Shown here in pieces: positions 2,152-32,227 of a stretch of DNA of 34,804 nucleotides. Source of the stretch: Myxococcales bacterium (GTDB taxonomy: Bacteria; Myxococcota_A; Polyangia; Palsa-1104; SHYY01); assembly GCA_009692555.1 (NCBI GenBank), contig SHYY01000048.1:1-34804 (forward strand), written 5' to 3'. A program made the translations under genes and the position numbers. Below the pieces are notes generated by a model. The model worked only from the letters and a program-made list of their open reading frames with translations, ran no database searches and had not been told where the DNA came from. Every line of letters begins with the position of its first letter. Position 1 is the stretch's first letter.

Positions 2152-3084
2152 ATGACTCGCCCATCGGCCCAACTGGAACCGGACGGCTCCCTGGACAGCT
2201 CCCTGTTCGGGCGGCAGGCTCGGACGCTCGCGCTGATCGAGGAGTGGCTCGATCGCACGCTGCCTCACCCCGGATCGCCGCCCTCCCGCCTCCACCTGGC
2301 GATGCGCGAGGCGGTCTTCCCCGGCGGGAAGCGGGCGCGTCCGGCGCTGGTGTGCATGGTGGCGGAACTCCACGGCGCGGGTGGCGCGGAGCTGGCGGGG
2401 CGGATGGCGGCGGCGGTTGAGCTGGTCCACTGCGCGTCGCTGGTGCACGACGATCTCCCGGCCTTCGACAACGCGGAGGAGCGCCGCGGCAAGCCGAGCT
2501 GCCACGCGATGTTCGGCGAGGCGACCGGAATCCTGGTCGGCGACGCGCTGCTCACGCTGGCCTTCGAGGTGCTCGCGTCGTCGCCGCTGGTCGAGGCGGA
2601 GCGGGCCATGCGGCTGACGCGGCTCCTGGCCGATGCCACCGGGTCGCGCTCCGGGATCATCGGTGGGCAGGGTCTCGAGCTGCAGACCAACGTCGACCTC
2701 GATGCCTACCACATGCAGAAGACGTCGGCGCTCTTTCGCGCCGCGGCGGGCGGCGGGGCGCTGGCGGCCGGCGCCGACGCTGACCTCGCGCGCTGGCTGC
2801 GCTTCGGCGAGCTGATCGGCCGGGCGCTCCAGCTTGCAGACGATCTGGACGATTGTCTCTCCTCGGCCGAGGTTTGCGGCAAGCCGGTGGGCCAGGACGC
2901 GCTGTTCGACCGGCCGAACGCCGCCCTGCGCTTCGGCGTCGACGAGGTGCGGCGGACCCTCGGTCAGACGGTGACGGAGGCGGTGGGGCTGCTCGGGACG
3001 CCCTCTTTGGCCACCGAACCGCTGCGGGCGCTGGTCCACCTGATCAGCGCCCGGCACCTCGCGGCAGCGACGGCAGGACACTAG
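2152..3084 (+). CDS. Polyprenyl diphosphate synthase, probably GGPP synthase (CrtE/IspA type)
   Basis: A 310-residue all-helical trans-prenyltransferase that would condense IPP with allylic diphosphates. The first Asp-rich motif is HDDLPAFD (D100, D101, D106), with the two-residue insertion of type II enzymes, followed by RRGKPS. The second Asp-rich motif is DDLDD (D230-D234), and GGKRARPA is upstream. The fifth residue before the first Asp is Ala (ASLVHDD), as in CrtE-type GGPP synthases, whereas E. coli FPP synthase has a bulky Tyr there; GGPP is therefore the favoured product, by inference. It is the first gene of a plus-strand trio with the START-like protein (15-bp gap) and the flavoprotein (2-bp gap). 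ATG start at 2152; no strong ribosome binding site is seen. Confidence 0.88.
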   Translation: MTRPSAQLEPDGSLDSSLFGRQARTLALIEEWLDRTLPHPGSPPSRLHLAMREAVFPGGKRARPALVCMVAELHGAGGAELAGRMAAAVELVHCASLVHDDLPAFDNAEERRGKPSCHAMFGEATGILVGDALLTLAFEVLASSPLVEAERAMRLTRLLADATGSRSGIIGGQGLELQTNVDLDAYHMQKTSALFRAAAGGGALAAGADADLARWLRFGELIGRALQLADDLDDCLSSAEVCGKPVGQDALFDRPNAALRFGVDEVRRTLGQTVTEAVGLLGTPSLATEPLRALVHLISARHLAAATAGH

Positions 3085-5769: not shown

Positions 5770-7347
5770 ATGCGCGTGTTGCTGATCAACTCGAATCGCG
5801 AGCAATCTCCGTGGCCGGCGGCGCCGATCGGCCTCGCCATGGTGGCGCGCGCGACCGCTGCGGCGCATCACGAGGTGTCGTTCCTCGACCTCGCCTTCGT
5901 GCGCAATCCGGCGCGCGAGACCCGGGTGCGGGCCGCCGAGTTTGCACCCGACGTCATCGGCATCTCGATCCGCAACCTCGACAACTGCAACTTCGACGCG
6001 CCGCGCTTCTACCTCGACGAGGTCCGCGATGAGGTGGTGCGCGTGGCCCGGCTGGCCTGCCCGCGCGCCCGGATCGTGATCGGCGGCGCGGCGGTGAACC
6101 TCGCGCCGTGGGATATCCTCCTGCACGTCGAGGCGGACTTCGCGCTGGCGGGCGAGGGCGAGGAGGCGCTGCCGGCCTTCCTTTCGGCGCTCACCGACGG
6201 TGCGGATCTCCAGGCTGTCCCGGGCGTGCTCGATCGCCACGGCCCGAAGCCCACCCCCGATCACGCGCGCGCCTTCGGCGGAGATCGCGTGTTCCTCGGC
6301 GAGCCGCCCGCCGGGCGATCGATCGTCACCGACTTCGAGACCGGCGGACGGAGCGATCTGTGGCGCTGGGTCGACTGGGCCACCTACGTCGGCCACGGGG
6401 CGCCCTATCCGATCCAGACCAAGCGCGGCTGCGCCCTGCGCTGCGTCTACTGCGCCTACAACAACATCGAGGGGCGCACCTATCGCTGCCGCGAGCCCCG
6501 CCTGATCGTCGACGAGATCGAGGAGGCGGTGCGCGAGGTCGGCGTGCGCTCGATCGACTTCGTCGACTCCACGTTCAATATCCCACCGGTCCACGCCATC
6601 GCTCTTTGCGAGGAGCTGGCGCGTCGCAAGCTGCCCTCCGACGTCGAGCTGTCGACGATGGGTGTCAATCCGGCCGCGATGTCGACCGAGCTCCTCGAAG
6701 CGATGAAGCGCGCCGGCTTCTCCAACGTGATGTGCACGCCGGAGAGCGCGTCCAACGTCACCCTCAAGTCGCTGCGCAAGGGATTCGACCGCGACCAGGT
6801 GATCTTCGCCGCCGAGCAGCTCCGCAAGGCCGGCCTGAAGACGCTGTGGTTCTTCCTGTTCGGCGCGCCCGGCGAGACCGTGGCGACGGTCAAGGAGACG
6901 CTCGAGTTCTGCGAGCGGTACATCGTGCCCACCGACGTGGCGCTGTTCACCGCCGGGATCCGGGTCTACCCGGGCACGCCGCTCGAGAAGCAGTGCAAGG
7001 AGCAGGGCTGGTTCGACGCCGCCGACAACCTCCTCCGGCCCTCCTGGTACGTGGCCCCGACGATCAGCGTGGCCGACATGTATCGCCTCCTGATCGAGGG
7101 CGCGATCGATCACCCCAACTGGATGACCGCCGCCGAGGGGATCCTCAATCCCGGGATGGTGTCCTTCGTCGACAAGGGCTATCGATTGCTGGGCGGCAAG
7201 GGGCCGCTGTGGGCGCGCATGCCCGATCTCTTCCGCTTCATGTCCCGGCTGGGCGTCCGCAAGAAGATCCTGATGCGGATGAACGACCTCCTCGTGTCGC
7301 GGACGCCGTCGCAGCTGCCGCATTCGCGGAAGCTCGAGGCCGGATGA
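5770..7347 (+). CDS. B12-binding-domain radical SAM enzyme
   Basis: A 525-residue protein. Residues 1-150 form a Rossmann-like B12-binding domain (MRVLLINSN, DVIGISIRNLDNCN, VIGGAAVNLAP). The radical SAM core holds the CxxxCxxC cluster at C221, C225 and C228 (KRGCALRCVYCAY). Downstream features include STMGVNPA, TPESASNVTLKSLRKGF and FFLFGAPGET, typical of class B radical SAM proteins. Such enzymes mostly methylate or rearrange unactivated carbons. The specific family is not recognised. It overlaps the next radical SAM gene by ATGA, so they are translated together and may act on the same substrate, plausibly a lipid given the neighbours. Promoter presumably lies in the 105-bp gap divergent from the YtfJ-like gene. 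Confidence 0.85.
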   Translation: MRVLLINSNREQSPWPAAPIGLAMVARATAAAHHEVSFLDLAFVRNPARETRVRAAEFAPDVIGISIRNLDNCNFDAPRFYLDEVRDEVVRVARLACPRARIVIGGAAVNLAPWDILLHVEADFALAGEGEEALPAFLSALTDGADLQAVPGVLDRHGPKPTPDHARAFGGDRVFLGEPPAGRSIVTDFETGGRSDLWRWVDWATYVGHGAPYPIQTKRGCALRCVYCAYNNIEGRTYRCREPRLIVDEIEEAVREVGVRSIDFVDSTFNIPPVHAIALCEELARRKLPSDVELSTMGVNPAAMSTELLEAMKRAGFSNVMCTPESASNVTLKSLRKGFDRDQVIFAAEQLRKAGLKTLWFFLFGAPGETVATVKETLEFCERYIVPTDVALFTAGIRVYPGTPLEKQCKEQGWFDAADNLLRPSWYVAPTISVADMYRLLIEGAIDHPNWMTAAEGILNPGMVSFVDKGYRLLGGKGPLWARMPDLFRFMSRLGVRKKILMRMNDLLVSRTPSQLPHSRKLEAG

Positions 7348-10810: not shown

Positions 10811-12112
10811 ATGCTCCCTCCGGGTCCTGGCAAGCTCTTCTCGATCTCCGCCGCGCGGCGGCTGCTGCGCGATCCGCCGGGGCTGATCACCGATTTCACC
10901 GCGCGCTACGGGCCGGTGTGGCGCACCCATCTCCCCGACCGCGGGCGCCTGAAGGATCTGGTCTGGTTGATGGGGCCGGAGGGCAACGAGCGCATTCTTG
11001 CTGCAACGCACAAAGACGACTTCTCCTGGCACGAGGGCTACCGCTTCACGATGGAGCCGATTTTTGGCGCCACCACACTCATCCTCCTCGACGGCGCGGC
11101 GCACCGGACGCGGCAGCGGGCGCTCCAGCCGGCCTTCCACGCCCGGATGGACGGCGACCACGGCGCGGCGATGCGCGAGATCGCGGAGGGCCGGTTTGCG
11201 GGCTGGCGGCGCGGCGAGACGATCGATCTCGCCGGGGAGCTGAAGCGGATCTCGTTCCATGTGGTGGCGCGCCAGTTCCTCGGCGCGGCCGACGCGGAGA
11301 TCCCGCCGTTGACCCGCCTGTTCGAGGAGATCGGGCTGGGGCTGTTCTCGGTGTTCAAGGTGCCGCTTCCGGGCACCCGCTTCCATCGGGGGGTGAAGGC
11401 GCGCCGCGCGCTCGCCGGGCTCCTTGCCGAGCGGATCCGGGACTATCGACGGAGCGGCGCGATCCCGGCGAACATGCTGGGCAGCCTGATGCGCAGCGAG
11501 GACGATGCCGGCGAGCCGCTGCCCGACGAGACCCTGGTGTCCGAGATGCTCGCCCTGGTGTTCGCCGGCTACGACACCACGTCGAGCCTGCTCACCTCGT
11601 TGTGGGTCGAGCTTGGCCGGCGACCCGAGATCCACGCCGCGCTGCAGGGCGAGGCGCGCGCCCTCGGGGAGGCCACTCCGCAAGCGTCGTCCGAGCAGCC
11701 CCTGCTCGATGCCGCGCTCCAGGAGGCCGAGCGGCTCCATCCGCCGCTGGTGTTCTGCCTCCGCGGCGCGACGCGCGATCTGACCTTCCGGGGCTTCGAG
11801 ATCCCGGCCGGCAGCAAGGTCGCCTACAGCGCGCACTACACCGGGCGCATGCCCGAGCTGTTCGAGCGGCCGCTCGAGTTCCGGCCGGAGCGGTTTCTCG
11901 ACGGGTGGCGCCCGCCCGCCTACGCGATGGTGGGCTTCGGGGGTGGCCCTCGCGCGTGCATCGGCAAGCGCTTCGCGCAGATCGAGATGCGGCTGATCAC
12001 GACCCTGATCCTGCAGCGCTGGGACTTCGAGTTCCTGCCCGGGCAGTCGGACGAGATGTACTACAACCCGACGCCGCAGAGGCGGCACGGGTTCCAGGTG
12101 CGGATCCGGTAG
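10811..12112 (+). CDS. Cytochrome P450, CYP120/CYP26-like
   Basis: A 433-residue soluble P450. The I-helix motif is FAGYDTTSS, the ExxR motif is EAERLHPP, and the haem loop is FGGGPRACIG with the ligand at C383. The N-terminus PPGPGKLFSISAARRLL has no membrane anchor. The haem loop and the final PTPQRRHGFQVRIR resemble cyanobacterial CYP120 and retinoid-oxidising CYP26 enzymes rather than CYP51, whose I-helix and haem loop differ. Hydroxylation of a terpenoid, retinoid or carotenoid is a reasonable inference. A ferredoxin partner is not encoded nearby. It is convergent with the DUF349 gene, 27 bp apart. Confidence 0.88.
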   Translation: MLPPGPGKLFSISAARRLLRDPPGLITDFTARYGPVWRTHLPDRGRLKDLVWLMGPEGNERILAATHKDDFSWHEGYRFTMEPIFGATTLILLDGAAHRTRQRALQPAFHARMDGDHGAAMREIAEGRFAGWRRGETIDLAGELKRISFHVVARQFLGAADAEIPPLTRLFEEIGLGLFSVFKVPLPGTRFHRGVKARRALAGLLAERIRDYRRSGAIPANMLGSLMRSEDDAGEPLPDETLVSEMLALVFAGYDTTSSLLTSLWVELGRRPEIHAALQGEARALGEATPQASSEQPLLDAALQEAERLHPPLVFCLRGATRDLTFRGFEIPAGSKVAYSAHYTGRMPELFERPLEFRPERFLDGWRPPAYAMVGFGGGPRACIGKRFAQIEMRLITTLILQRWDFEFLPGQSDEMYYNPTPQRRHGFQVRIR

Positions 12113-19630: not shown

Positions 19631-20728
19631 ATGCGGATAGCCATTGTCGGTGCGGGACCGGGCGGGTCGACCGCGGCGCTGTCGCTGGCGCGGCAGAAGC
19701 GCCATGAGGTGGTGCTGATCGACCGCGACGTCTTTCCGCGCGTGAAGACCTGCGGCTCGGCGCTCTCCCCGCGCTGCATCACGCTCAGTCAGGAGCTCGG
19801 GCTCTCGTCGGTGATGGAGAAGCAGGCCTACTGGATCCGCGGGCTGCGCTTCACCGGACCGTCGGGGCGCGAGGCGACCCTCTCGGGCAAGGAGGGCGCG
19901 TGGATCATTCCGCGCGCGCGCTTCGACGCGGAGATCGCATTCACCGCCGAGCGCACCGGCGCGCGCTTCGAGCAGGGCTTCAAGGCGATCAAGGCGCTGA
20001 AGGACCCGTCGGGGCGCGTGCGCGGCATCTCCGACGGAAAACGCGAGATCGAGGCCGACCTGACGATCTTCGCCGACGGCGCCCACTCGCGCTTCTCCGA
20101 AGACAAGCGCCCGAAGCGGCAGATCGCCACGATCATGGGCTGGTGGGAGGGGATCCCGCACCTCGCGGGGCACATGGAGATGTGGTTCTCGAAGCGCGTC
20201 TCCCCCTGGTACGGGTGGCTGTTCCCCGAGAACGCGACGCGGGTCAACATCGGCATCTGCTACGACCCCGCCGACGCGGCCGATCCCAAGACCATCCTCC
20301 AGGAGATCATCGACCGCCACGTCGGACCCGAGCGCATGAAGGGCGCCGAGATGGTCGCCTGCGAGTGCAGCACGACCATCAAGTACCGCGGGGCGCCGAT
20401 CGTCTACACCGAGGAGGTCGGCCCCGTCGCCGCCCCGGGCGCGCTGTGGATCGGCGAGGCCGCGCGCCTCACCAACGCCGCCACCGGCGAGGGCATTTAC
20501 CACGCCATGAAGTCGGGCGCGATCGCCGCCGACGTGATCGCCCAGAACCTGAACGGCACGCTCGGCCAGGTCTACGAGCAGGCCATCCGCCGCCACTTCA
20601 CCTTCCGCCTCCGCATGGCCCTCGGCTTCCTGAAGTTCGCCGGCTCGCCCGCCTTCTCCGCGGTGACCTCGCTGCTCGCCTACCGCCCCGTCGAGAAGAC
20701 GCTCCAGTGGGCACTCGCCCACGTCTGA
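19631..20728 (+). CDS. Geranylgeranyl-reductase-family flavoprotein
   Basis: A 365-residue FAD enzyme. The dinucleotide motif is GAGPGG at residues 7-12. The family's PxxxxCG segment appears as FPRVKTCGSALSPRC. WYGWLFPENATRVNIGI corresponds to the YGWxFP motif, and WIGEAARLTNAATGEGIYHAMKSG to the second FAD motif with the TGEGI turn. These are hallmarks of geranylgeranyl reductases, which saturate isoprenoid double bonds in archaeal lipids, chlorophyll and quinones. It is not squalene epoxidase. Sitting 1.1 kb upstream of the sterol operon and downstream of an isoprenoid region, it might saturate a polyprenyl or sterol side-chain double bond; this is inference. No strong ribosome binding site is present. 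Confidence 0.82.
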   Translation: MRIAIVGAGPGGSTAALSLARQKRHEVVLIDRDVFPRVKTCGSALSPRCITLSQELGLSSVMEKQAYWIRGLRFTGPSGREATLSGKEGAWIIPRARFDAEIAFTAERTGARFEQGFKAIKALKDPSGRVRGISDGKREIEADLTIFADGAHSRFSEDKRPKRQIATIMGWWEGIPHLAGHMEMWFSKRVSPWYGWLFPENATRVNIGICYDPADAADPKTILQEIIDRHVGPERMKGAEMVACECSTTIKYRGAPIVYTEEVGPVAAPGALWIGEAARLTNAATGEGIYHAMKSGAIAADVIAQNLNGTLGQVYEQAIRRHFTFRLRMALGFLKFAGSPAFSAVTSLLAYRPVEKTLQWALAHV

Positions 20729-20777: not shown

Positions 20778-21101
20778 ATGGTTCGGGCTGAGCGACGGAA
20801 GACCCTGCCACGCGACATGCGGTGGCTGTTCCCCGAAATCTACACGCCGCGGCTCGACCTCGACGCCCAGGCAGACGGGATCCTGGCCCGCGTTCTCGAG
20901 CAGGGTGGCACATCCGAGGTCCGCTGGGCGGTCCACAGGTACGGCCTCGCAAGGATCCACCGCTTCTTTCGGGACGTCGGTCATCCGGATCTAAGCCCCC
21001 GCACGATTCAATTCTGGCGCGCACTGCTGCATGCCCCGGACGAGGAATGGAAAAGCCCACCGGCCTGGCGAAAGAGCAAGATCGCGCCCTGGATCTACTG
21101 A
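20778..21101 (+). CDS. DUF6922-type putative antitoxin
   Basis: A 107-residue protein with RWLFPEIYTPRLDLDAQADG, then ILARVLEQGGTSEVRWAVHRYG and SPRTIQFWRALL. This pattern is typical of the small DUF6922 partner encoded just before AbiEii-type nucleotidyltransferases. It overlaps the downstream gene by 55 bp, a usual arrangement in such pairs. Its antitoxin role is inferred from that pairing. ATG at 20778. Confidence 0.75.
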   Translation: MVRAERRKTLPRDMRWLFPEIYTPRLDLDAQADGILARVLEQGGTSEVRWAVHRYGLARIHRFFRDVGHPDLSPRTIQFWRALLHAPDEEWKSPPAWRKSKIAPWIY

Positions 21102-21694
21102 AGCGCGTGCCCGCCGTGGCGGAGGGATTTTATCTCGCCGGGGGGAGCGCGCTCGCGTGGCACCTTCGCCATCGCCGGTCCAACGATCTGGACTTTTTTT
21201 CGCTCACTCCGAGCGTCGGTCTCGAGGGCGTCCGGCGGGGCCTCGCGCACGGGATACCGGCGGCCGTGGCGCTCTCCTCGTCCGACGTCGCCATGAAGGT
21301 GCGCCTCGGCGACACGATGGTGGATTTCGTGAGCTACCCCTATCCGCCGCTCGATGCGCCTCGGGTCGGGCCACGCGGCTTTCCCGTCGCTGGCGTGCGT
21401 GATCTGGCCGCCATGAAGGTGGCGACGATCGCGTCGCGGGGTCTGCGTCGAGACTTCTGGGACCTGTTCGCGATCCTCGACGGCCCGCGAATGACACTGC
21501 AAGACGCGGTGGAGTCCTATCGTGCGCGCTTCGGCCTCACCGAGGCCGCCAGCTATCATGTGATGCGGGCGCTGACGTTCTTCGAGGACGCGGAGCGCGA
21601 TCCTCTGTGGCCCCAGGGTCTGACGAGCCGCAAGTGGGCATCGATCAAGAGGTTCTTCACCAGCAGTGCGCCCCTGCTCCTCGATGTTCCGTAG
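21047..21694 (+). CDS. AbiEii/AbiGii-family nucleotidyltransferase (putative toxin)
   Basis: A 215-residue protein from the ATG at 21047. The nucleotidyltransferase motif YLAGGSALAWHLRHRRSNDLDFF is at about residues 29-51 (G32-G33-S34; acidic D47 and D49), matching the GGSxLAxxxxHRxSxDLDFF pattern of AbiEii. PVAGVRDLAAMKVATIASRG and RDFWDLFAIL follow, as in the family. AbiEii proteins act in type IV-like toxin-antitoxin or phage-abortive systems, and some transfer nucleotides to tRNA. It overlaps the DUF6922 gene by 55 bp. The pair ends 142 bp before the sterol operon and seems functionally unrelated to it. Confidence 0.85.
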   Translation: MEKPTGLAKEQDRALDLLKRVPAVAEGFYLAGGSALAWHLRHRRSNDLDFFSLTPSVGLEGVRRGLAHGIPAAVALSSSDVAMKVRLGDTMVDFVSYPYPPLDAPRVGPRGFPVAGVRDLAAMKVATIASRGLRRDFWDLFAILDGPRMTLQDAVESYRARFGLTEAASYHVMRALTFFEDAERDPLWPQGLTSRKWASIKRFFTSSAPLLLDVP

Positions 21695-21728
21695 TCGCCG
21701 GATCCGATTGCCGTTGCCGTTGCCATGA

Positions 21729-21742
21729 GTGCGAATTCGCAC
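21729..21742. promoter_or_regulatory. 14-bp perfect palindrome upstream of the sterol operon
   Basis: GTGCGAATTCGCAC is a perfect 14-bp palindrome, 94 bases before the first sterol gene. A related GCGAAAACGCAC follows at 21754-21765, next to an AT-rich stretch (AGTAAAATTAAG) that is unusual in this GC-rich DNA and could hold a -10 element. It is a candidate operator for the sterol operon. Confidence 0.4.
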
Positions 21743-21822
21743 CTGCCATTTGAGCGAAAACGCACAGTAAAATTAAGCACTTGAGCCACCTCCTGCCGCG
21801 TGCTACGTCGGGCGCGCAACAC

Positions 21823-21829
21823 AAGGAGG
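21823..21829 (+). promoter_or_regulatory. Strong ribosome binding site of the sterol operon
   Basis: AAGGAGG, seven bases before the ATG at 21837. It is the best Shine-Dalgarno match seen in the window and fixes the start of the first sterol gene. Confidence 0.8.
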
Positions 21830-21836
21830 CGGTCCC

Positions 21837-22955
21837 ATGATCCTCGTCACCGGCGGCGCCGGGCACCTCGGCGCCAATCTCGTTCGCAGGCTGATCGCCG
21901 ATGGCCACGGCGGAGACATTCGCGCCCTCTATCGGCCCGCGAGCGACAATCGCGCGCTCGACGGCCTCCCGATCGAGCTCGTGGCCGGCGATCTTCGCGA
22001 CCTCGAGTCCCTGCGCGCCGCGGTCCGCGGGTGCGACCTTGTCTACCACTGCGCGGCCAAGATCTCGACGTTGGCGGGCAGCGAGCGCGAGATCTTCGAC
22101 TGCAATGTAGTCGGCACGCGGCATCTGCTGCTCGCGGCGCGCGAGGCGGGTGCGAAGAAGGTGGTCGTCTCCGGCTCCTTCAGCGCCGTCGGCCATCACC
22201 TCAGCCGCCCCAGCGACGAGAGCGTGCCGTTCTACCCGTTCGCCCTGGCGATGCCCTACGAGTGGACCAAGGCGCTGGTGGAGATGGAGTGCTGGCGCGC
22301 CGCCGCCGCCGGGCTCGAGACCGTGGTCGCCACCTCGTGCGCGATCATGGGCCCGCACGACTACAAGCCGTCGCGGATGGGCGAGACCCTGATCGCGTAC
22401 GCCCACCGCAAGCTGCCCGCCTACATCCCGGGCGGCTTCGAGTTCGTCTCGGCGCGTGACATCGTCGAGGGGCACATCCTGGCGATGGAGAAGGGCCGGA
22501 GCGGCGAGAAGTACATCATCAGCACCCGCTACGTCACGCTCGACGAGCTGATGCAGATCTTCCAGGAGGTCACCGGGACGCCGAAGCCGCGCTTCCGCCT
22601 CCCGCCGCCGCTGATGGCCGGCATCGCCGCCGTCGCCAGCCCGATCATGAGCCGCTTCTTTCCGCGGCGCACCCAGCGCCTCACCCCCGGGGCGATCCGC
22701 CTCCTCCGGATGGGCCGCCGCGCCGATCACGGCAAGGCGGAGCGCGACCTCGGCTTCCGTCCGACCAGCATGGAGGAGGCGGTGACGCTGGCGTACGCCG
22801 ATTTCCTCCGCCGCGGCTTGATCGAGCGCCCGCGCAGGAGCGTCGCGTTCGTCGATCCCTATCCCGCGCCCAAGGGCAAGCCGGCGGTCGAGGCCGCTCC
22901 TTCAGCGGGTCAGGGTCCGGCCAAGGTCAACGGCGCGCCGGAGGTCCAGGCGTGA
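21837..22955 (+). CDS. sdmB: SdmB-like NAD(P)-dependent sterol dehydrogenase (3-beta-HSD family)
   Basis: A 372-residue extended short-chain dehydrogenase. The cofactor motif is GGAGHLGANL at residues 5-14, the active-site Ser lies in VVSGSFSAVG, and the catalytic pair is Y141 and K145 (YEWTK). It resembles 3-beta-hydroxysteroid dehydrogenase/C-4 decarboxylases. In Methylococcus capsulatus, SdmA (Rieske oxygenase) and SdmB (reductase of this family) together remove C-4 methyl groups from sterols. The same gene pair occurs here, with the Rieske gene overlapping by GTGA, so SdmB function is the favoured call. The C-terminal tail (residues 335-372) is Pro/Ala-rich and probably disordered. First gene of a five-gene operon; strong AAGGAGG upstream. 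Confidence 0.82.
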   Translation: MILVTGGAGHLGANLVRRLIADGHGGDIRALYRPASDNRALDGLPIELVAGDLRDLESLRAAVRGCDLVYHCAAKISTLAGSEREIFDCNVVGTRHLLLAAREAGAKKVVVSGSFSAVGHHLSRPSDESVPFYPFALAMPYEWTKALVEMECWRAAAAGLETVVATSCAIMGPHDYKPSRMGETLIAYAHRKLPAYIPGGFEFVSARDIVEGHILAMEKGRSGEKYIISTRYVTLDELMQIFQEVTGTPKPRFRLPPPLMAGIAAVASPIMSRFFPRRTQRLTPGAIRLLRMGRRADHGKAERDLGFRPTSMEEAVTLAYADFLRRGLIERPRRSVAFVDPYPAPKGKPAVEAAPSAGQGPAKVNGAPEVQA

Positions 22956-24070
22956 ACCAGGACACCGCGCGTCGTCCCCCCGACTTCCACCAGGCGCGCA
23001 ATCGCCGCCAGAAGGTGCGCGCGGCGGGGATGAACCCCGATTACTGGTATCCCGTTGAATACGACAAGAACGTCGCACCCGGGAAATCCGTGTCGGTGAC
23101 CTTCTGGAAGCGGGCGATCGCCCTCTACCGCGGGATGGACGGCCAGCTCCGCGCGGTCGAGGATCGCTGCGCCCACCGGCAGCTCAAGCTCTCCGCCGGC
23201 ACCGTCGAGGGATGCAACCTGGTGTGCCCCTACCACGGCTGGTGCTTCGACGGCGACGGCAAGCTCGCCCACGTCCCGCACGACCTGTTCGGGCACGAGA
23301 TGCCCAAGGTCCAGATCACCAGCTTTCCGGTCCGGGTGCGCTACGGCCTGATCTGGATCTTCCCCGGCGATTCCGCTTTAGCGGAGGAGCGCACGATCCC
23401 CGATCTCCCCGAGATCGAGGGGCCGGTGGCGAAGCGCTGGGGCCACGTCCTGACCGACTTCACCTGGCGCGCCCATCACTCGATGATCCTCGACAACGTG
23501 AGCGACTTCAGCCACGCCTACCTGCACCGCAAGTACCGCCCCTTCACCGACGCCAAGCTCACCAAGTGCGAGGCGGTGGGCGACAAGGTGTTCGTCAGCT
23601 ACGACACCAAGGTCGGCACCGGCCCGATCTCGGGCCTGTTCATCGATCGCCAGCGCGTCGACATGAACGCGATGGACCTCTGCTACGAATACCCCTACCA
23701 GTGGTCGAACACCGACGGGCAGATCAAGCACTGGTGCTTCGTCCTGCCGATCGACGAGCGCACCACGCGCAGCTTCTTCCTGTTCTATTTCAAGTCTTTC
23801 AAGGTGCCGTTCCTGCCGCTGCGCATCCCGCGGCGCGGCATGAGCGTGATCCTCGACTTCGCCAAGGTGCTGCACGTGAAGCCGCTGCTGGCCGAGGACG
23901 GGGTGGCGGTCGAGGCGGAGCAGGCGGGCTACGAGGCGCACTTCGACCAGCCGATCGCGGAGCTCAATCCGGCGGTGGCGCTGTTCCAGCAGCTGACGAT
24001 CCGGAAGTGGGAGGAGCACCTCCAGAAGTCTGACAAGAGCGGCCGGGCCGTCGCCCAGGTGCAGCCGTGA
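22952..24070 (+). CDS. sdmA: SdmA-like Rieske oxygenase (sterol C-4 demethylation)
   Basis: A 372-residue protein with a GTG start at 22952 overlapping the preceding stop by four bases. The N-terminal Rieske [2Fe-2S] domain has C73-x-H75 (CAHR) and C92-x2-H95 (CPYHGW). The catalytic domain has NVSDFSHAYLH, giving D185, H188 and H192 for the mononuclear iron. It would oxidise the C-4 methyl of a sterol stepwise, with the carbon lost by the SdmB-type partner. Related Rieske proteins include the DAF-36/Neverland cholesterol 7-desaturases, a less likely alternative given the SdmB partner. A separate reductase/ferredoxin is needed and is not in the operon. It also overlaps the cyclase start by GTGA. 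Confidence 0.85.
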   Translation: MNQDTARRPPDFHQARNRRQKVRAAGMNPDYWYPVEYDKNVAPGKSVSVTFWKRAIALYRGMDGQLRAVEDRCAHRQLKLSAGTVEGCNLVCPYHGWCFDGDGKLAHVPHDLFGHEMPKVQITSFPVRVRYGLIWIFPGDSALAEERTIPDLPEIEGPVAKRWGHVLTDFTWRAHHSMILDNVSDFSHAYLHRKYRPFTDAKLTKCEAVGDKVFVSYDTKVGTGPISGLFIDRQRVDMNAMDLCYEYPYQWSNTDGQIKHWCFVLPIDERTTRSFFLFYFKSFKVPFLPLRIPRRGMSVILDFAKVLHVKPLLAEDGVAVEAEQAGYEAHFDQPIAELNPAVALFQQLTIRKWEEHLQKSDKSGRAVAQVQP

Positions 24071-26130
24071 ACATCGTCGCGCCGCTTCCGATTCCACTCT
24101 CCGGCCCGGGGCCATCTGCCGTCGCTGGGGGCCGCCAGGATGCGCTCGCTCGCGCCGCCTCGCACCTCCTGGCGCAGCAGCGCGCGGACGGATCGTGGGA
24201 GGGCGAGATGGTGTGGAACACGATGATCCTCTCGCAGCACGTGATCGTGCGAGCGATCGTCGGCCGGCCGTTCGACGAGGCGACCCGCGCCGGGATCCTC
24301 CGCCACTACCAGGTGACCCGCACCCTCGACGGGGCGTGGGGGATGCACGCCGAGTCGGACGGCTACGTCTTCTTCACCACCCTCGCCTACGTCGCCCAGC
24401 GCCTGCTCGGTGTGCCGGCGAGCGATCCGATCCTGGCGACCGCGCGGAGGTGGCTCCACGCGCGCCCCGGTGGGGTCCTGGCGGTGCCGTCGTGGGGGAA
24501 GTTCTGGCTGGCGTTTCTCGGGCTCTACGAATACGAGGGGGTCAATCCCTGCCCGCCCGAGCTCTACGCGCTGCCGTCGTGGGTGCCGATCCATCCCACC
24601 CGCTACTACTGCCACACCCGCAACATCTACATGGGCCTCGCCTACCTCTACGGGCGTCGCTTCCGCGCCGACCTGGGGCCGCTCCGCGAGGCGCTGCGGG
24701 CCGAGCTGTACCCCGCGCGCTACGACACGATCGACTTCGCCGCCCATCGCCACGACGTCGCGGCGAGCGATCTCCACGTGCCCCCGTCGGCGGGCGTCCG
24801 GCTCTCCGCCGACGCGATGACCCTCCACGAGCGGGTCCACTCGCGACGCTTCCGCAAGCGCGCCCTCGGGCACTGCTTCGATCGCATCCTGTTCGAGCAG
24901 CGCTCCTCGAACTACCAGGCGCTCTCGCCGGTCAACGGCCTGCTCAACTGCCTCGCGATCCACGCCCGCGACCCGCAGCACCCCGACCTCGCGCCCAGCC
25001 TGGACGGGGTCGAGAGCTGGCGCTGGGAGGACGCGGCGGAGGGCGTCCGTTATTGCGGAGCGCATTCCACTACATGGGATACGGCCTTCTCCCTGCTCGC
25101 GCTGACCGAGTCGCCGGCCACCACAAGGCAGGCCGGGGCGGCGCTGGGACGGGCCTATCGGTTCCTCGACCGGGCGCAGATCACCGAGGACCTGCCGGCG
25201 TGGCGCGAGGAGCACCGCGACCGGGCGCTCGGCGGCTGGTGCTTCTCCGACGGCGTCCACCGCTGGCCGGTCTCCGACTGCACCGCCGAGGCGCTGTGCG
25301 CGATCCTCCAGCTGCACCGCCTGCGGGCGATCGCCCCGGGCGAGCAGATCCCCGGCGCGCGCCTGCTCCAGGCGGCCGAGTTCATCCTCCTCCGTCAAAA
25401 CGGAGACGGCGGGTTCGGCACCTACGAGCGGCGCCGCGGGTCAGCGTTCCTGGAGGGGATCAACAACACCGAGATGTACGGCAACTGCATGACCGAGCGG
25501 TCGTACGTGGAGTGCACCGCCTCGTCGGTGGCGGCGCTCTCGCACCTGCTCCTGACGCCGCCGGTGGAGCTGCCGGAGGAGTTGCCCGATGAGACGTTGG
25601 CGCGGATCGGCAGCGCGATCACGAGGGGCGTCCAGTTCCTGCGCGCCCAGCAGCGCCCCGACGGCTCCTACCCCGGCTTCTGGGGGATCAACTTCACCTA
25701 CGCCATCTTCCACGTCGTCAAGGGGCTCCGCGCGGCCGGTGTCGCCGCGGACGATCCGGCGATCGCGCGCGCCGCGGCGTGGCTGGTGCAAAAGCAGCGC
25801 AGCGACGGTGGTTGGGGCGAGCACTACACCAGCTGCCTCGACGATCGCTACGTCGAGCACCGCGAGAGCCAGGTGGTCATGTCGAGCTGGGCGCTCCTGG
25901 CGCTGCTGGAGGCCGGCAGCGAGAAGTCCCTCGCCCCCGCCATCGAGCGCGGCGTGGCGTGGCTGCGCGCGGTGCAAAAGAGCGACGGGTCGTTTCCCGC
26001 GGGGGCCCAGAACGGGGTCTTCTTCGGCTCCGCGATGCTGGACTATCGGCTCTACAAGGCGTACTTCCCCACCTGGGCGCTCGCCCGCCACGCAGAATGG
26101 ACCGCCGCCACCGGTCGGCCGCGCCACTAA
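24067..26130 (+). CDS. osc: Oxidosqualene cyclase (lanosterol synthase type)
   Basis: A 687-residue monotopic membrane triterpene cyclase, GTG start at 24067. The catalytic segment is WPVSDCTAE with the proton donor D404, the oxidosqualene form of the motif; squalene-hopene cyclases have DxDD. The partner Cys is in YVECTAS. Many QW-type repeats are visible (QQRADGSWEG, QNGDGGFGTY, QRPDGSYPGFWG, QRSDGGWGEHYTSC). The Val before SDC matches lanosterol synthases, where plant cycloartenol synthases have Ile. However, the usual MQG(T/Y)NGSQxWD motif is replaced by RYCGAHSTTWD, so product prediction is uncertain. The substrate, (S)-2,3-oxidosqualene, requires a squalene epoxidase encoded elsewhere. 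Confidence 0.93.
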   Translation: MNIVAPLPIPLSGPGPSAVAGGRQDALARAASHLLAQQRADGSWEGEMVWNTMILSQHVIVRAIVGRPFDEATRAGILRHYQVTRTLDGAWGMHAESDGYVFFTTLAYVAQRLLGVPASDPILATARRWLHARPGGVLAVPSWGKFWLAFLGLYEYEGVNPCPPELYALPSWVPIHPTRYYCHTRNIYMGLAYLYGRRFRADLGPLREALRAELYPARYDTIDFAAHRHDVAASDLHVPPSAGVRLSADAMTLHERVHSRRFRKRALGHCFDRILFEQRSSNYQALSPVNGLLNCLAIHARDPQHPDLAPSLDGVESWRWEDAAEGVRYCGAHSTTWDTAFSLLALTESPATTRQAGAALGRAYRFLDRAQITEDLPAWREEHRDRALGGWCFSDGVHRWPVSDCTAEALCAILQLHRLRAIAPGEQIPGARLLQAAEFILLRQNGDGGFGTYERRRGSAFLEGINNTEMYGNCMTERSYVECTASSVAALSHLLLTPPVELPEELPDETLARIGSAITRGVQFLRAQQRPDGSYPGFWGINFTYAIFHVVKGLRAAGVAADDPAIARAAAWLVQKQRSDGGWGEHYTSCLDDRYVEHRESQVVMSSWALLALLEAGSEKSLAPAIERGVAWLRAVQKSDGSFPAGAQNGVFFGSAMLDYRLYKAYFPTWALARHAEWTAATGRPRH

Positions 26131-26160
26131 CCACTTCACCCGACCATCAGGAGCTGGAGA

Positions 26161-26718
26161 ATGGGCTACATCTTTGATCCGGAGCACTTGCAGCAGATCG
26201 GCCAGACCGGTGTTGGACTCCCCCACGAGGAGATGTGCCGCGTGGTGATCGAGGGCCTCGCCGCCGCCTACCCCGGCCATATCGAGACCAAGCAGGATTG
26301 GATCTTCAATCTCGCCGCGGGGGCCACGGGAATCATGACCGTCCTCCACGGATCGCTCAGCGAGTACATCATCATCTTCGGCTCCGCCGTCGGTACCGAG
26401 GCGTTCTCCGGCCGCTACCACGTCGATATCTACGACACGATGCTCGCCGGCGAGATGTGGACCTACACCGAGGAGAACTTCCGGGAGAAGACGACCCATC
26501 TGCCTGGCGAGATGGCGCTCCTGAAGCGCGGCACGGCCAAGGGCTTCAAGACACGCGAGGGGAGCTGGATGCTCGAATACGGGCGCGGCCTCGTGCCGAC
26601 CGCGCTGCCGATCGGGCTGGGCGACGCGGTCCTGGCGATGGATGGCGTCACGGTCTGGAAGACGCTCCGCAACTACGGGCGCCTGGTCACGCGCGAGCTG
26701 CTCCAGGGCAAGATCTGA
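26161..26718 (+). CDS. ERG2/sigma-1 receptor family protein, putative sterol C8 isomerase
   Basis: A 185-residue protein. YIFDPEHLQQI, then DWIFNLAAGATGIMTVLHGS, SEYIIIFGSAVGTEAFSGRY and WMLEYGRGLVPTALP follow yeast ERG2 and the sigma-1 receptor almost throughout. The two acidic residues essential in the family are present: D92 in DIYDTML (human D126) and E139 in WMLEYGRG (human E172). ERG2 moves the sterol double bond from C8 to C7, which fits between cyclisation/C-4 demethylation and reduction here. Unlike its eukaryotic relatives it has no N-terminal transmembrane helix; the protein begins at YIFDPE. It may bind the membrane through its two C-terminal helices. A ribosome binding site (AGGAGCTGGAG) precedes the ATG, 30 bp after the cyclase. 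Confidence 0.88.
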   Translation: MGYIFDPEHLQQIGQTGVGLPHEEMCRVVIEGLAAAYPGHIETKQDWIFNLAAGATGIMTVLHGSLSEYIIIFGSAVGTEAFSGRYHVDIYDTMLAGEMWTYTEENFREKTTHLPGEMALLKRGTAKGFKTREGSWMLEYGRGLVPTALPIGLGDAVLAMDGVTVWKTLRNYGRLVTRELLQGKI

Positions 26719-26765
26719 TTCTCCCGTTCCATTCCCGCCAATCCATTCCCTTCCAGAGGAAGCGC

Positions 26766-28010
26766 ATGAACGAGAAGAAGAAGCAGGCATTTGCCTTCGG
26801 CTACGCCGCGGTCCCGCTGATGGTGATTCTCCCGCCGCTGGTCTATTACATGTGGATCTGCATGGAGTACTACGGCGGGGCGATGGTGATGCCGACGCTG
26901 GAGGTGTGGAGGCACATCCCGCTGCCGACGGTGACCTCGGTGGCGATCTGGATGGGCTGGTTCGGGTTCCAGGCGGCCCTCCAGATCTATGCGCCCGGGC
27001 CGTGGATCGAGGGGGCGGCGCTGGTCGACGGGTCGCGGCTGAAGTACAAGATGAATGGCTGGTTCACCTGGTGGTTCACCTGGGTCTGCATCGCCGCCGG
27101 GGTCTACCTCGGCTGGTTCAAGCCGACGGTGCTGTTCGATCATTTCGGCCCGCTGATGACCACGGTGCACCTGTTCGCTTTCGGGCTCAGCGCCTGGATG
27201 TACCTCCTCGGCAAGATGCGGCCCGATGACGGCACGGCGGAGCTCACCGGCAATCTGTTCCACGAGTATTTCATGGGCACCGCCCTCAATCCGCGCACCG
27301 GCAACTTCGACTGGAAGCTGTTCTGCGAGGCGCGGCCCGGATTGATCGGGTGGGTGGCGATCAATCTCTCGTTCGCGGCGCAGCAGTACCAGGTCCACGG
27401 GTCGCTCACGACCCCGATGATCCTGGTCTGCGCGTTCCATTTCTTCTATGTGGCCGATTACTACTTCCACGAGGAGGCGATCCTCTCGACGTGGGACATC
27501 CGCCACGAGAATTTCGGCTGGATGCTGGTGTGGGGCGATCTGGCGTGGGTGCCCTTCACCTACACCCTGCAGGCGCTCTACCTGATCCAGCACACCCACG
27601 ATCTCTCGCTGGCAGCGACGGTCGGGATCGTCGCGCTCAACGTCGCCGGCTACCTGATCTTCCGGATCACCAACATCCAGAAGCACAATTTCCGCAAGAA
27701 TCCGGAGGCGCTGATCTGGGGAAAGAAGCCCGAGTTCATCAAGACCCAGAAGGGCTCGGTGCTCCTCCTCTCGGGGATGTGGGGGATCGCAAGGCACCTC
27801 AATTACCTGGGCGACCTGATGATGGCGCTGGCGTGGTGCCTGGTGTGCGGCTTCGGCAATCTCCTGCCCTATTTCTACATCATCTATTTCACCATCCTGC
27901 TCGTTCATCGCGAACGCCGGGACCACGTCACCTGTGCCGCCAAGTATGGCAAGGACTGGGAAGACTATTGCGCCAAGGTGCGCTGGCGCATCGTCCCCGG
28001 CGTGTACTGA
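26766..28010 (+). CDS. ERG4/ERG24/DHCR7-family sterol reductase (C-7 or C-14)
   Basis: A 414-residue polytopic membrane protein with about eight to ten hydrophobic segments. The family signatures are LNPRTGNFDWKLFCEARPGL, GDLAWVPFTYTLQALYL, LSGMWGIARHLNYLGDL and the C-terminal HRERRDHVTCAAKYGKDW...YC. They build the NADPH pocket of Delta14, Delta7 and Delta24(28) sterol reductases. Segments such as INLSFAAQQYQVHG, LIWGKKPEFI and RIVPGVY look like 7-dehydrocholesterol reductase and plant DWF5. GDLAWVPF and NFRKNP look like the C-14 reductases. The double bond reduced is therefore undecided, with C-7 slightly favoured. Last gene of the sterol operon, 47 bp after the isomerase, with GAGGAAG before the ATG. 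Confidence 0.88.
   Translation: MNEKKKQAFAFGYAAVPLMVILPPLVYYMWICMEYYGGAMVMPTLEVWRHIPLPTVTSVAIWMGWFGFQAALQIYAPGPWIEGAALVDGSRLKYKMNGWFTWWFTWVCIAAGVYLGWFKPTVLFDHFGPLMTTVHLFAFGLSAWMYLLGKMRPDDGTAELTGNLFHEYFMGTALNPRTGNFDWKLFCEARPGLIGWVAINLSFAAQQYQVHGSLTTPMILVCAFHFFYVADYYFHEEAILSTWDIRHENFGWMLVWGDLAWVPFTYTLQALYLIQHTHDLSLAATVGIVALNVAGYLIFRITNIQKHNFRKNPEALIWGKKPEFIKTQKGSVLLLSGMWGIARHLNYLGDLMMALAWCLVCGFGNLLPYFYIIYFTILLVHRERRDHVTCAAKYGKDWEDYCAKVRWRIVPGVY

Positions 28011-28028: not shown

Positions 28029-32227
<4,199 letters not shown>

Follow-up and report, generated by a model that had tools for sequence, protein, structure and literature searches.

A compact five-gene cluster as the probable core of a sterol pathway in an uncultured member of the Myxococcota

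The window analysed here is the whole 34,804-nucleotide contig SHYY01000048.1 of a Myxococcales bacterium (assembly GCA_009692555.1), an uncultured member of the Myxococcota, and it carries a five-gene operon that very probably represents the core of a myxobacterial sterol pathway, in which an SdmB-SdmA-oxidosqualene cyclase (OSC) trio and a mobile ERG2-ERG24 pair are brought together as one unit and whose main product is predicted to be a Δ7 C27 sterol such as lathosterol. The source genome is a 6.1-Mb draft, 80% complete and in 283 contigs, of which the window is contig 216; in what follows Gxxx denotes a genome (G000 being the source draft), Lxxx a fetched locus, and C224 and C57 are contigs of G000. 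Judging from gene identity, catalytic residues and phylogenetic placement, OSC would convert oxidosqualene to lanosterol, a CYP51-ferredoxin encoded on another contig would take off the C-14 methyl group, and ERG24, of the MaSR1 type, would reduce the Δ14 bond. SdmA would oxidise and SdmB decarboxylate the C-4 methyl groups, ERG2 would move the Δ8 double bond to Δ7, and a geranylgeranyl reductase (GGR)-family protein encoded upstream, resembling the sterol reductase Bsr, would saturate the side chain at C-24.

The five genes (SdmB, SdmA, OSC, ERG2 and ERG24) follow one another in a single orientation on the + strand (21837-28010), with exact 4-bp overlaps (GTGA) at the sdmB/sdmA and sdmA/osc junctions and gaps of 30 bp between osc and erg2 and 47 bp between erg2 and erg24. 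An earlier note on this DNA had described five genes running in a single direction with these overlaps and gaps, and both the coordinates and the protein families bear it out (Table 1). GC content at third codon positions was 0.90-0.94 for all five genes, as in genuine genes of the source genome, and the expected catalytic residues were found in all five proteins, an agreement well above what chance would give. The packing suggests that the cluster is probably a single transcription unit. The same note had anticipated a sterol demethylated at C-4 whose ring double bond has been shifted and reduced, and this is what the genes predict, with OSC, ERG2 and ERG24 falling with sterol enzymes in trees and best matches and with CYP51 being present in the genome. 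Calling the late pathway eukaryote-like, as the note did, is justified by the protein families; SdmA, SdmB and Bsr, however, originated in bacteria, and publications describe this set in other myxobacteria.

Table 1. Positions of the operon genes, of the features flanking them and of the second sterol locus
Feature	Position	Strand	Evidence or remark
sdmB, NAD(P)-dependent dehydrogenase/decarboxylase of bacterial sterol C-4 demethylation	21837..22955	+	NF052578 E 5e-98
sdmA, Rieske oxygenase for sterol C-4 methyl group	22952..24070	+	NF052579 E 8e-118
osc, 2,3-oxidosqualene cyclase, predicted lanosterol type	24067..26130	+	TIGR03463 902.9 bits (cut-off 851)
erg2, sterol Δ8-Δ7 isomerase, ERG2/sigma-1 receptor family	26161..26718	+	PF04622 (ERG2_Sigma1R) E 3e-51, 174 bits (cut-off 21)
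erg24, integral-membrane Δ14-sterol reductase, MaSR1 type	26766..28010	+	4QUV E 5e-157, full length
CYP51, P450 with C-terminal ferredoxin in one open reading frame	L240:2379-4292 (G000 contig C224)	-	6MCW E 8e-155
Second sterol locus	L240:237-4292 (contig C224)	SDR and ERG25-type hydroxylase +; CYP51-ferredoxin -	
Bsr-like C-24 sterol reductase candidate, GGR family, 365 aa	19631..20728	+	GG-red-SF E 4e-46; YGWLFP, KTCG
DUF6922 protein, probable antitoxin-like partner	20778..21101	+	PF21956 E 1e-6
AbiEii-family nucleotidyltransferase, type IV toxin-antitoxin-like	21047..21694	+	PF08843 E 2e-14; start codon from sequence
Gap before sdmB, likely control region	21695..21836		142 bp, GC 0.59 against 0.70; palindrome; GGAGG ahead of sdmB

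Both Sdm proteins matched the models for bacterial sterol C-4 demethylation best and by a wide margin (HpnA was second for SdmB, at E 4e-71), yet SdmA and SdmB (393 and 329 bits, respectively) stay under the 600-bit equivalog cut-offs, which are Methylococcus-specific. The GxxGxxG and YxxxK motifs of SdmB are in place, as are the Rieske CxH..CxxH and the N..D..H...H iron site of SdmA.

CYP51, for which the earlier note had proposed a search of the rest of the genome, was found at a second sterol locus on contig C224, together with a short-chain dehydrogenase/reductase (SDR) resembling ERG26/NSDHL or OleD and a putative ERG25-type hydroxylase, so labelled from NYAHPLETL, a motif of that family; comparison of this hydroxylase with solved structures gave no PDB match. 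The best match of the CYP51-ferredoxin was the CYP51 entry 6MCW, which we take to be the natural CYP51-ferredoxin fusion of Methylococcus, and the alignment spans both domains. The CYP51 shares 77% identity with the one in G190, a genome that, judging by its cluster, is probably Sandaracinus amylolyticus. Contig C224 is very likely binned correctly because hexanucleotide repeats of the same families (CGTAGT/CGACTA and CCGTTC) are present both in it and in the window, and because the same close ERG25-type-CYP51 neighbourhood occurs in G002 and G004, both of the window's order; contamination is unlikely on the same grounds. A P450 gene within the window (10811-12112) was considered as CYP51 and dropped, CYP51 being on contig C224.

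The coexistence of these two loci raises the possibility, which we consider doubtful, that the pathway ends at a 4-monomethyl or partly processed sterol, SdmA/SdmB stripping one methyl group while the ERG25/ERG26-like pair on C224 strips the other or works elsewhere. SdmAB takes off a single methyl group in Methylococcus and requires SdmC in Enhygromyxa (PMC10202945), the operon is without a third SdmB-like gene, and the ERG25-type hydroxylase and the NSDHL/OleD-like SDR share their contig with CYP51 in the source draft. However, the window SdmA is nearest to the homologue of Calothrix rhizosoleniae (65% identity, compared with 57% to that of G190), a congener of the Calothrix strain whose SdmAB clears both methyl groups (PMC10202945), and S. 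amylolyticus and Minicystis rosea both make cholesterol using SdmAB, without SdmC (PMC12004948). Equally tentative is the proposal that two unrelated C-4 demethylation systems operate in one genome, with the bacterial Rieske pair SdmA/SdmB and the eukaryote-type ERG25/ERG26-like pair beside CYP51 removing one methyl group each, in a pathway that combines a module inherited within the order with an ERG2-ERG24 module that moves laterally. Among myxobacteria, SdmA-C together with ERG25-27 homologues has already been noted in Nannocystis (PMC10152446), and ERG25/ERG26 homologues have been reported at loose thresholds in others (PMC4919349).

The cyclase matched human lanosterol synthase at E 1.6e-120 and carries the catalytic DCTAE at residue 404. 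At human positions 381, 449 and 453 it has Ala, His and Val, the same triple as in G190 and in a Calothrix relative, and Val at position 453 was shared by every bacterial OSC compared. Given the published rule that Val rather than Ile at this position marks a lanosterol-type OSC (PMC10152446), the enzyme is predicted to make lanosterol; positions 449 and 381 being His and Ala, the rule leans here on one residue. Lanosterol has been shown to be the product of one Calothrix cyclase (PMC10202945). In the OSC tree the window grouped with a same-genus genome (100/99) within a clade of the order (100/100) that also includes the Planctomycetota locus L101 and is separate from human and plant cyclases, the two eukaryotic sequences in this tree being too few to tell the direction of transfer. 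OSC was found in 12 of the 14 genomes sampled from the order and in all 7 of the good ones.

ERG2 matched the sigma-1 receptor at E 4e-32, its D92 and E139 being equivalent to D126 and E172 of the receptor, and it was closest to the protein of Minicystis rosea (68% identity). Proteins of the ERG2/sigma-1 receptor family were also seen in fetched loci that had no OSC match, namely in Mycobacterium (L133, L136, L138, L142, L146, L149), Bacillota (L120, L137), Chloroflexota (L116, L121, L155) and Asgard archaea (L124, L167).

The last gene, whose mechanically called open reading frame begins further upstream at 26235, encodes a member of the ERG4_ERG24 family (E 1e-117, above the Pfam cut-off) and is most likely a C-14 reductase, because its product matches MaSR1 (4QUV, deposited as a Δ14-sterol reductase) from end to end and falls with the MaSR1 proteins of methanotrophs in the ERG24 tree (clade support 86-90% SH-aLRT, not starred). 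Y228 and D350 align with Y241 and D363 of MaSR1, and such an activity agrees with the finding of CYP51 in this genome. The earlier assignment as an ERG24/DHCR7-type reductase thus stands for ERG24, whereas DHCR7 was rejected on the 4QUV match and the tree. We reasoned that a DHCR7-type Δ7 reductase at this position would let the operon alone give a cholesterol-like Δ5 sterol; a single Pfam family covers both DHCR7 and C-14 reductases, and the ERG24 tree was built without a eukaryotic DHCR7 sequence. Such an outcome is nevertheless highly improbable, since MaSR1 was the top match by far (E 5e-157, with the second-best structure at E 2e-76), the window clusters with methanotroph MaSR1, and the Δ14 bond made by the CYP51 of the same genome calls for a Δ14 reductase.

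Upstream of the operon, a GGR-family gene (19631-20728) that the earlier note had overlooked is a candidate for the Bsr C-24 reductase. In 2025 Bsr, a GGR-family enzyme marked by YxWxFP and an active-site cysteine, was shown to be responsible for C-24 sterol reduction in myxobacteria that make cholesterol (PMC12004948), and the window protein has the same marks, with YGWLFP at residue 194 and Cys41 within KTCG. It scored 157.9 bits against GG-red-SF (cut-off 158.8) and is 40% identical to the homologue within the G190 sterol cluster and 60-61% identical to proteins from two genomes of the same order. Relatives of this protein co-occurred with ERG2 in 14 genomes where 2.7 were expected (379 genomes of the phylum, counted regardless of kinship), and several of them adjoin SdmA, SdmB, squalene epoxidase or OSC. 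The overlapping DUF6922 and AbiEii-like genes, a toxin-antitoxin-like pair (20778-21694), separate the Bsr-like gene from sdmB, and for this reason it probably lies outside the operon transcript.

Several observations weigh against the pathway as proposed. The candidate Bsr fell in a clade with G002 and G004, outside the clade holding the presumed S. amylolyticus Bsr; this was seen in a larger tree with an unresolved backbone, which included the presumed S. amylolyticus and the Calothrix homologues but no menaquinone reductases, and which replaced a small tree with too long branches. G013, a genome of the same genus that is 95% complete, carries OSC and squalene epoxidase but lacks ERG2 and ERG24. 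In the source draft, only one ERG4/ERG24-family protein was found and no C-5 desaturase was recognised; of its five FA_hydroxylase proteins, the four with the His-box motif do not look like C-5 desaturases and the fifth (on C57) is unassigned. These two gaps lead us to predict a lathosterol-like Δ7 C27 sterol as the product, while cholesterol is possible if the missing genes sit in the unassembled fifth of the genome. Finally, squalene epoxidase was found neither by family nor by same-genus protein search in the 80%-complete draft. Two FAD-protein matches of the same-genus epoxidase, considered as an epoxidase under another name, turned out to be the GGR-like gene in one case and a halogenase-like protein in the other. 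In favour of the pathway, the draft gave three squalene/phytoene synthase-type matches. Of the enzymes that the earlier note had proposed to look for, CYP51 and, within the window, a C-24 reductase candidate were found, but neither an epoxidase nor a C-5 desaturase.

The earlier note had held that a genome devoid of squalene epoxidase, together with a failure to detect sterols, would refute its reading, and no epoxidase was detected in this draft; however, of the 12 genomes of the order that have OSC, the remaining 11 all carry the gene, G013 included, and for this reason the gap most likely reflects assembly loss. That the epoxidase was genuinely lost and that the organism, having abandoned synthesis from squalene, uses these enzymes to alter sterols from prey or surroundings is very unlikely, for although ERG2 relatives exist in Mycobacterium and others without an OSC match in the fetched loci and both epoxidase searches were negative, the OSC is intact with its DCTAE, the draft is short by about 20%, the rest of the OSC-bearing genomes have kept the gene, and we know of no use for an OSC without oxidosqualene.

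The operon as a sterol pathway core appears to have been assembled from two older modules with separate histories. G006, G008 and G009 have SdmB-SdmA-OSC arranged identically, G001 has the same trio interrupted by CYP51, and this module is conserved across three families of the order. By comparison, ERG2 and ERG24 are adjacent in G001, G002 and G004, in methanotrophs and in L101, and the ERG2 clade (99% SH-aLRT) and the ERG24 clade (90%) of the window contain matching taxa. Most simply, a front module inherited within the order would have been joined to a back module that moves laterally. Conservation of the late part does not extend across the genus, given its absence from G013, which is probably an early-stage sterol maker. 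The G013 genome (locus L045) was without ERG2, ERG24 or an FA_hydroxylase-family gene.

Taken as a whole, the window adds a new example, compact to an unusual degree, of a pathway that experiments have demonstrated in related myxobacteria rather than a new type of system, because the same set of enzymes serves cholesterol synthesis in Sandaracinus and Minicystis. In S. amylolyticus these genes mostly form one cluster, and what is shared with both species comprises OSC, CYP51, SdmAB without SdmC, ERG2, an ERG24-family reductase and a GGR-family C-24 reductase, a candidate in the window (PMC12004948). By contrast, gene order and compactness differ, and neither a second ERG4/ERG24 member nor a C-5 desaturase was found in the window's draft. 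G190 holds SdmB, SdmA, GGR, squalene monooxygenase (SQMO), OSC, an ERG24-family protein, CYP51, a ferredoxin and ERG2; its in-cluster ERG24-family copy belongs to a different clade, whereas the window ERG24 is in the MaSR1 clade, and its ferredoxin-like stretch is separate, whereas the CYP51 of the window organism has a fused ferredoxin. Enhygromyxa salina, also a myxobacterium, has a cholesterol pathway with CYP51, SdmAB-type C-4 demethylation and an ERG2-family gene (L150), but its genes are scattered, SdmC is needed and its C-24 reductase is canonical, in contrast to five packed genes and a GGR-type candidate here (PMC10202945). Methylotuvimicrobium and Methylobacter have adjacent ERG2-ERG24 in the same order and in matching clades (MaSR1, PDB 4QUV), although not linked to SdmB-SdmA-OSC within the fetched loci (<=10 kb per side). 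In Calothrix, where a 21-kb sterol cluster has been described (PMC10202945), the C. rhizosoleniae locus L165 has OSC, SdmA, SdmB, CYP51, ERG2, GGR and an ERG24-family gene in one neighbourhood, but spread over about 12.7 kb with intervening genes and another order, and in another phylum. The closest arrangement seen was that of the Planctomycetota metagenome-assembled genome K_Offshore (L101), with CYP51-SdmA-ERG2-ERG24-OSC on one strand; however, SdmB was not found in this 17.6-kb locus, and ERG2-ERG24 precede OSC instead of following it.

What stands out is how compactly two modules are fused and that two gene sets for C-4 demethylation coexist. An uncultured order of the Myxococcota in which OSC is nearly universal can be added to the bacteria in which late-stage sterol synthesis is likely, and a pathway assembled from separately traceable modules touches on the origin of eukaryotic sterol synthesis and on steranes as eukaryote markers. 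The compact operon represents a handy cassette for heterologous expression, and the second locus, of ERG25 type, allows the idea of two systems for C-4 demethylation in one cell to be tested.

The low-GC gap upstream of sdmB likely holds the control region. A scan for a sigma-70 consensus ahead of sdmB gave no match, while GGAGG precedes the gene and a 14-bp perfect palindrome, GTGCGAATTCGCAC, lies at 21729-21742. The core of this palindrome had no copy in the other loci fetched by the time of the check, and it is a possible operator. Elsewhere upstream, the window carries a farnesyl-diphosphate-synthase-like gene (2152-3084) and a gene for a B12-binding radical SAM protein (5770-7347) whose closest model, TIGR04072 (lipid biosynthesis), was matched below the cut-off. 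The hexanucleotide repeats translate as TG-rich linkers, in a protein kinase of the window (31358-31522) and in CYP51, where the repeat (L240:2706-2798) lies between the P450 and ferredoxin domains.

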